DNA of 64,000 nt from Nitrosospira briensis C-128 (GTDB lineage: Bacteria; Pseudomonadota; Gammaproteobacteria; Burkholderiales; Nitrosomonadaceae), in assembly GCF_000619905.2 (NCBI RefSeq), contig NZ_CP012371.1:62001-126000 (forward strand), in the 5' to 3' direction. The position numbers and the translations under genes were made by a program. Shown one piece after another: positions 13,832 through 15,191 of this stretch. Position 1 is the first letter of the stretch; each line of letters begins with the position of its first letter. Under the pieces are notes generated by a model. It did no database searches, was not told the origin of the DNA, and worked only from the letters and a program-made list of their open reading frames with translations.

Positions 13832-14048
13832 GATATTTTCCTTCTTGTTCAGAATAAGCGATGATGCCTATCGTTGAACATAAACCGGAATTATTCAATT
13901 GTTCTGTACGCTATGGCACATAAAGCTCAGGCTTGGCAGCGCGCGAGCGGCGCGGAGGCAATTTTAATACTGTGGTTGTGTGATAAATACTGATAATTGG
14001 TGATAGTTGCGGGTAGTAGCCAACAATACGGTCTATGCAAATTGCAAG
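13832..14048. other. Intergenic, no gene recognised
   Basis: Region upstream of the Rieske oxidoreductase (read leftward) and of the small secreted protein (read rightward). It should contain the oxidoreductase promoter; I could not assign -35/-10 boxes with confidence. Confidence 0.4.
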
Positions 14049-14104
14049 GTAGGTCAGGCTCTGCCTGACGATCGTAAAATGATGTCGGGCGGAGCCCGAC
14101 CTAC
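14049..14104. repeat. Paired palindromes GTAGGTCAGGC/GCCCGACCTAC
   Basis: Two self-complementary hairpins, GTAGGTCAGGC-TCT-GCCTGAC and GTCGGGC-GGA-GCCCGACCTAC, which are also inverted copies of each other. This resembles REP-type intergenic repeats seen in many Proteobacteria. It sits just ahead of the ribosome binding site of the next gene. No second copy was seen in this window. Confidence 0.7.
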
Positions 14105-14122
14105 GAAAAAAGGAGCGCTATT

Positions 14123-14893: not shown

Positions 14894-15062
14894 TTCTCCT
14901 CAGTTTTTTGCATCAGCCATTATCCATAACTACAATTATAATTCTTATTTGTATGTAATTTTACATGTATAATTACGATATATAAGGCCTGACGATTTGC
15001 CACGGTGTGATATGGCAGTGGACTCCCACGCCAGATCATAAAAGATCCGCCTAACTGGAGGT

Positions 15063-15138
15063 TGGCGTCCCCAAGGGGATTCGAACCCCTGTACTCACCG
15101 TCAAAGGGTGATATCCCAGGTCACTGGACGATGGGAAC
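15063..15138 (-). tRNA. tRNA with Glu body and UUG (Gln) anticodon, possibly pseudo-tRNA
   Basis: A full 76-base cloverleaf with encoded CCA can be folded. The acceptor (GTTCCCA/TGGGGAC with one G-U pair) and T arm (AGGGG-TTCGAAT-CCCCT) match bacterial tRNA-Glu. The anticodon loop is CTTTGAC, giving UUG, where tRNA-Glu has CTTTCAC (UUC). The D-loop has lost the second invariant G (GA in place of GG). All visible deviations lie in the 5' half and at base 36; the 3' half is canonical. An automated caller would probably report tRNA-Gln, but true tRNA-Gln genes have a different acceptor stem. Function is doubtful. Confidence 0.85.
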
Positions 15139-15191
15139 GAAATATGTTGAAAACGGATAGCTGCATATTATCGCTAAGGAAATGCCAAACC

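Follow-up and report, generated by a model that had tools for sequence, protein, structure and literature searches.

INTRODUCTION

Several kinds of irregular tRNA gene have been described in bacteria. Low-scoring tRNA copies and tRNA pseudogenes receive low model scores, are surplus to the set of tRNAs that the genome needs, carry changes at conserved positions, and have an anticodon that disagrees with the isotype of the molecule (tRNAscan-SE 2.0, PMC8450103). Another kind is represented by tRNA-ProX of Streptomyces and Kitasatospora, in which the body of one isotype bears the anticodon of another (PMC11415595). New tRNA genes can also be gained by duplication followed by anticodon mutation, or tRNA remolding, and in a survey of 319 bacteria all five gains by anticodon mutation retained the amino acid (PMC4041420). 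Finally, the 3' ends of tRNA genes are used as attachment sites by genomic islands and prophages, where a perfect tRNA 3' half stands beside foreign DNA.

The stretch of DNA analyzed here (the window) comprises 64,000 nt of the genome of the soil bacterium Nitrosospira briensis C-128 and contains a tRNA-like gene that recalls each of these systems. The gene is a tRNA-Glu pseudogene of an ordinary type whose insertion history is mildly interesting. It is very probably a non-functional relic, formed when a tRNA-Glu copy with a short 3' trailer inserted in the N. briensis lineage, that has drifted since and is probably not transcribed.

RESULTS

A tRNA-Glu body with a glutamine anticodon

The only tRNA that ARAGORN reports for the window lies on the minus strand at 15063-15138 and is labeled tRNA-Gln(ttg) (Table 1). 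The original prediction had viewed this element as a tRNA-Glu body carrying a UUG anticodon and had expected a functional tRNA-Glu elsewhere. The C-128 genome, a single contig of 3,210,113 bp (this size is also given in PMC4964001, Table 3), indeed encodes a functional-type counterpart, tRNA-Glu(TTC) at 3040105-3040180, and comparison with this gene (92% identity) bears out the mixed nature of the copy. The two differ at 6 of 76 nt: C3U, U13C, G19A, A21G, C25U, and C36G in tRNA numbering, or C3T, T13C, G18A, A22G, C26T, and C37G in raw numbering. Every change lies within nt 1-37, and nt 38-76 are identical, so the 5' clustering beside a perfect 3' half that had been noticed from the sequence is real. 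The invariant D-loop G that had been reported missing is G19. The acceptor stem had been said to match tRNA-Glu; it does belong to a Glu body, but it is not fully identical, since C3-G70 has become U3-G70.

Table 1. Features of the tRNA-Glu-like copy and its insert in the window
Feature	Position	Strand	Basis
Insert of about 152 bp with no counterpart at this locus in the sister species; right edge no more than 1-2 nt from tRNA nucleotide 1	14988..15139		Empty-site alignments with Nitrosospira sp. Nsp11
tRNA-Glu-like pseudogene, anticodon UUG, CCA end encoded	15063..15138	(-)	ARAGORN, Rfam, isotype models, tRNA-Glu comparison
Anticodon UUG (tRNA-Glu: UUC), C36G transversion at 15102	15102..15104	(-)	tRNA-Glu comparison
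G19A, which removes the invariant D-loop G partnering C56	15121	(-)	tRNA-Glu comparison, invariant column
Trailer 3' of the copy; kin to the trailer beside a tRNA-Glu 3' fragment in Nsp11; differs from the real tRNA-Glu flank	14988..15062	(-)	Alignments
Hairpin CGCC-AAC...GTT-A-GGCG over the CCA end, then TCTTTTAT; weak terminator-like, within the best-conserved piece of the trailer	15048..15067	(-)	Direct reading and alignment

A functional tRNA-Glu has the UUC anticodon and retains the invariant positions. In the copy, C36G is accompanied by five more changes, and all six substitutions fall at columns that do not vary among 17 tRNA-Glu genes from the order (raw position 37 is an invariant C). 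The Rfam tRNA score of the copy is 50.3 bits; of the 44 tRNA matches in the genome, only one scores lower.

For the isotype models, 17 sequences each of tRNA-Glu and tRNA-Gln were taken from the order. The order-wide tRNA-Glu covariance model gives the copy 87.6 bits, compared with 104.5 for the real tRNA-Glu of the genome, and the order-trained tRNA-Gln model fails to detect the copy at E values up to 10. By its best model, then, the copy is a tRNA-Glu and not a tRNA-Gln, and these scores rule out a live tRNA-Gln as the main reading of the copy. The original prediction had named a high-scoring Gln call as the outcome that would speak against a Glu body; no such call was obtained. Because the anticodon is now UUG, anticodon-based gene finders name the copy tRNA-Gln.

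An insertion private to the N. briensis lineage

At the locus of the window, Nsp11, which is the closest relative, keeps both flanking genes and has only a few bases in place of the copy. The copy is also absent from the other genus members that could be aligned at this locus. A search of 60 relatives revealed a second tRNA-Glu copy in 0 of the 22 other genus genomes, each of which has one full-length tRNA-Glu. The empty site in Nsp11 and the absence from other members of the genus indicate that the copy inserted in the N. briensis lineage alone, and they rule out a conserved gene. An unchanged gene in related species had been named in advance as the second outcome that would count against the original reading, and no relative has one.

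On one side the insert is flanked by a small unclassified gene and on the other by a fatty-acid desaturase gene. Since it starts at the tRNA 5' end, the DNA upstream is the older leader of the desaturase gene, and no tRNA promoter was brought in. A promoter scan upstream of the copy on the minus strand gave no sigma-70-like site. Neither the upstream nor the downstream flank of the copy matches the real tRNA-Glu locus, which rules out a plain duplication of that locus with its flanks.

No exact match to a pattern combining the Glu body with UUG was found in 84,980 species genomes, a set from which the C-128 genome was possibly left out. With UUC in place of UUG, the pattern matches in 89 of the 398 phylum genomes, and therefore the scan would catch variants in a good part, not all, of tRNA-Glu genes. 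Conservation across related species, as expected of a tRNA with dual identity, was thus seen neither among the 22 genus genomes nor among the 84,980. Lost conserved positions together with a lack of conservation in relatives are the marks of a pseudogene, and the copy has both.

About 1 kb from the copy, at 14047-14105 of the window, is a roughly palindromic REP-like dispersed repeat of ~56 bp. About a dozen copies of it occur in the genome, on both strands, and their number in Nsp11 is similar.

Divergence of the copy

Across 11 genus genomes, the real tRNA-Glu shows no differences over 75-76 nt. Divergence at fourfold sites between C-128 and Nsp11 is 17-23%, and if this is split about evenly between the two branches, then ~10% is expected for a neutral sequence on one branch. 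The observed divergence of the copy is 7.9%, a value that fits neutral drift since about the Nsp11 split. In simulations, every stem pair is kept by chance in about 9% of cases and all changes fall in the 5' half with a probability of about 0.01-0.02, although both tests are post hoc and carry modest weight. The kept pairs and the 5' clustering could reflect chance, slight residual selection, or renewal of the 3' half through recombination. Simple drift explains the confinement of changes to the 5' half poorly.

The trailer and a related insert in Nsp11

The tRNA-Glu copy is followed by CGCCARCYTCCARTTAGGCG. A terminator scan did not flag the hairpin at the start of the trailer. Nsp11 carries a separate insert that consists of a 35-nt 3' fragment of tRNA-Glu (nt 42-76) and a related trailer. 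This insert is located 5.5 kb from the real tRNA-Glu of Nsp11 in the opposite orientation (L106 11206-11318, equal to C15:119205-119317), and it is missing from N. briensis at the syntenic place. The C-128 and Nsp11 trailers align with ~60% identity and share the terminus CCTRACG at the insert boundary. Their alignment scores above 2000 of 2000 shuffles when global and above all but 15 of 2000 when local. That Nsp11 carries a truncated tRNA-Glu insert whose trailer is related supports the relic status of the C-128 copy.

Across 100 family genomes, a profile of the trailer recovers the two known copies and no others (all further hits have E >= 0.02), which speaks against a larger family of such tRNA-trailer inserts. 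Among named genomes, the exact trailer pattern occurs only in Nsp11. The trailer matched no phage or viral contig in the searches made, and on this ground a phage source was ruled out. Nothing credible from other Rfam families was seen across the insert, and no inverted repeats were reported there at the threshold of the tool. Separately, a 16-nt piece of the Nsp11 trailer matches the tRNA-Cys anticodon arm perfectly.

Mobile-element traffic at tRNA-Glu

Judging from neighboring genes, tRNA-Glu appears to be an integration hotspot in the genus. In four Nitrosospira congeners, tRNA-Glu is directly followed by recombinase-like ORFs. A resolvase domain is present in three of the four (in one case slightly under the curated cut-off), and the fourth has DUF6538, an N-terminal domain of phage integrases. 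Several congeners also have short 3' fragments of tRNA-Glu close to the real gene. Because tRNA-Glu sees such integration traffic, a recombination relic is the likeliest source of the copy, and descent from mobile-element traffic is plausible.

One form of this origin is the scar of an integrative element: an att-like remnant at the tRNA-Glu 3' end, in which recombination used the perfect 3' half as its core and the element supplied the trailer. This reading is possible but falls short of probable. It concerns origin and is compatible with a decayed relic. The recombinase-like ORFs and 3' fragments in congeners agree with it, as do the clustering of changes in the 5' half and the 3' half and trailer common to the Nsp11 insert. 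However, an attachment relic would show a second copy of the tRNA 3' half at the far end of the element along with an integrase; here no integrase was found among the seven neighboring proteins scanned, and the only two core matches in the C-128 genome are the copy and the real tRNA-Glu. The trailer also lacks a phage or viral counterpart in the searches made, and the insert includes the tRNA 5' half, although a simple attachment core could do without it. The original prediction that an integrating element had rebuilt the 3' half is therefore retained only in part. The unit is an insertion, the 5' clustering of its changes is improbable under chance, and recombinase genes follow tRNA-Glu in congeners, but no integrase was seen among the neighboring proteins scanned, the genome yielded no second att copy, and the insert also contains the 5' half.

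An unlikely alternative route is retrocopying, in which reverse transcription acted on a pre-tRNA that was already processed at its 5' end and still had its 3' trailer, and the product then inserted. The Nsp11 insert would be a 5'-truncated example. The right edge at tRNA nucleotide 1 in C-128, the truncation at nt 42 in Nsp11, the common trailer end at the insert boundary in both species, and three reverse-transcriptase domain matches in the C-128 genome would be consistent with such an event. Only two copies were found in the 100 family genomes, however, with no clear target-site duplication or tail, and no source gene with this trailer was found.

As an independent observation, two adjacent genes with reverse-transcriptase domains occupy 524062-525991 on the same strand (frames of 451 and 696 aa) and possibly form a paired-RT system; a third RT is at 1812247.

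Glu and Gln decoding in C-128

Besides the copy, the genome encodes a regular tRNA-Gln(UUG) as well as GatB. It has three members of the GluRS/GlnRS family, which we assigned by size and position: the 570-aa protein is probably GlnRS, the 483-aa protein, which adjoins the real tRNA-Glu, is GluRS, and the 300-aa protein is probably Glu-Q tRNA-Asp synthetase. Since a genuine tRNA-Gln(UUG), GlnRS, and GluRS exist, the copy is not needed.

The anticodon U34 U35 G36 is a main determinant for GlnRS, which also requires U1-A72, G2-C71, and G3-C70. In bacteria that also have GlnRS, GluRS reads the anticodon base C36. The copy has G36 and, in the acceptor stem, G1-C72, U2-A71, and U3-G70. By these rules, G36 should hinder GluRS and the three acceptor pairs should hinder GlnRS.

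It is improbable that the copy is a live auxiliary tRNA, charged by GlnRS through UUG and G73 and decoding CAA correctly and harmlessly. A main GlnRS determinant is in place and the enzyme is present, but the acceptor pairs are not those it prefers, the order-trained tRNA-Gln model is blank, and the regular tRNA-Gln(UUG) already exists.

A live mistranslator that is transcribed, charged by GluRS, and inserts Glu at CAA codons is very improbable. Here C36, the base read by GluRS, is mutated, D-helix U13 is changed as well, and the copy is unconserved, promoterless, and lacks G19. In its favor are intact stems, an encoded CCA, the Glu isotype score, and the pair G1-C72, which should prevent GatCAB (GatB being present) from repairing Glu-tRNA to Gln-tRNA; natural dual-identity bacterial tRNAs provide a precedent, with Streptomyces tRNA-ProX variants acting in this way at other codons (PMC11415595). 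Charging with Glu would make the copy a natural Glu-for-Gln mistranslator, an outcome that its anatomy and its lack of conservation speak against. Of the two fates originally proposed, misreader or decoy for gene callers, the misreading tRNA is thus unlikely, whereas the decoy agrees with the lack of a native promoter, the neutral-like changes, the blank Gln model, and the lack of conservation.

Just as hard to credit is a small mobile unit that combined tRNA-Glu with a trailer of 75-80 nt and moved independently in two sister Nitrosospira, perhaps via reverse transcription of 5'-processed pre-tRNA, and whose full-length copy still yields a UUG tRNA with a Glu body.

DISCUSSION

The best explanation for the copy is a dead relic. 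At about the time of the split between N. briensis and Nsp11, or later, a tRNA-Glu gene copy with a short 3' trailer inserted between the small gene and the desaturase gene. The probable source is recombination at the 3' end of tRNA-Glu, a site that integrating elements appear to use in the genus. Random drift would have followed, with one change turning the anticodon from UUC to UUG. Having come without a promoter, the copy is probably not transcribed as a tRNA and would make no contribution to decoding. We infer from the sequence comparisons that it is neither expressed nor functional.

Against a relic, the copy has lost none of its 21 stem pairs, keeps an intact CCA, and still reaches ~50 bits with Rfam; with these features retained, the molecule could fold. 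If the copy were transcribed, loss of the G19-C56 tertiary pair would weaken that fold.

The locus offers a clean example of how a mismatch between isotype and anticodon arises, through insertion of a promoterless tRNA and subsequent drift and not through recoding. It also serves as a warning for annotation, since the second tRNA-Gln that ARAGORN assigns here is not one.

The copy is like known bacterial tRNA pseudogenes in all the features listed at the outset. Unlike those, it keeps a full cloverleaf fold and an encoded CCA, and its insertion is visible through the empty site of a sister species (PMC8450103). With tRNA-ProX it shares the joining of one isotype's body to another's anticodon, but tRNA-ProX is a family in soil Actinomycetes, whereas the copy is single, unconserved, and confined to one species (PMC11415595). 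Remolded tRNAs are likewise duplicates with an altered anticodon; in contrast to the cases surveyed (PMC4041420), the anticodon of the copy switches the amino acid and the remainder of the molecule is decaying. As at tRNA attachment sites, a perfect 3' half adjoins a foreign trailer, and tRNA-Glu resembles such a site in the genus, but the copy differs in having no integrase or second direct repeat that could be found and in having its 5' half inside the insert.
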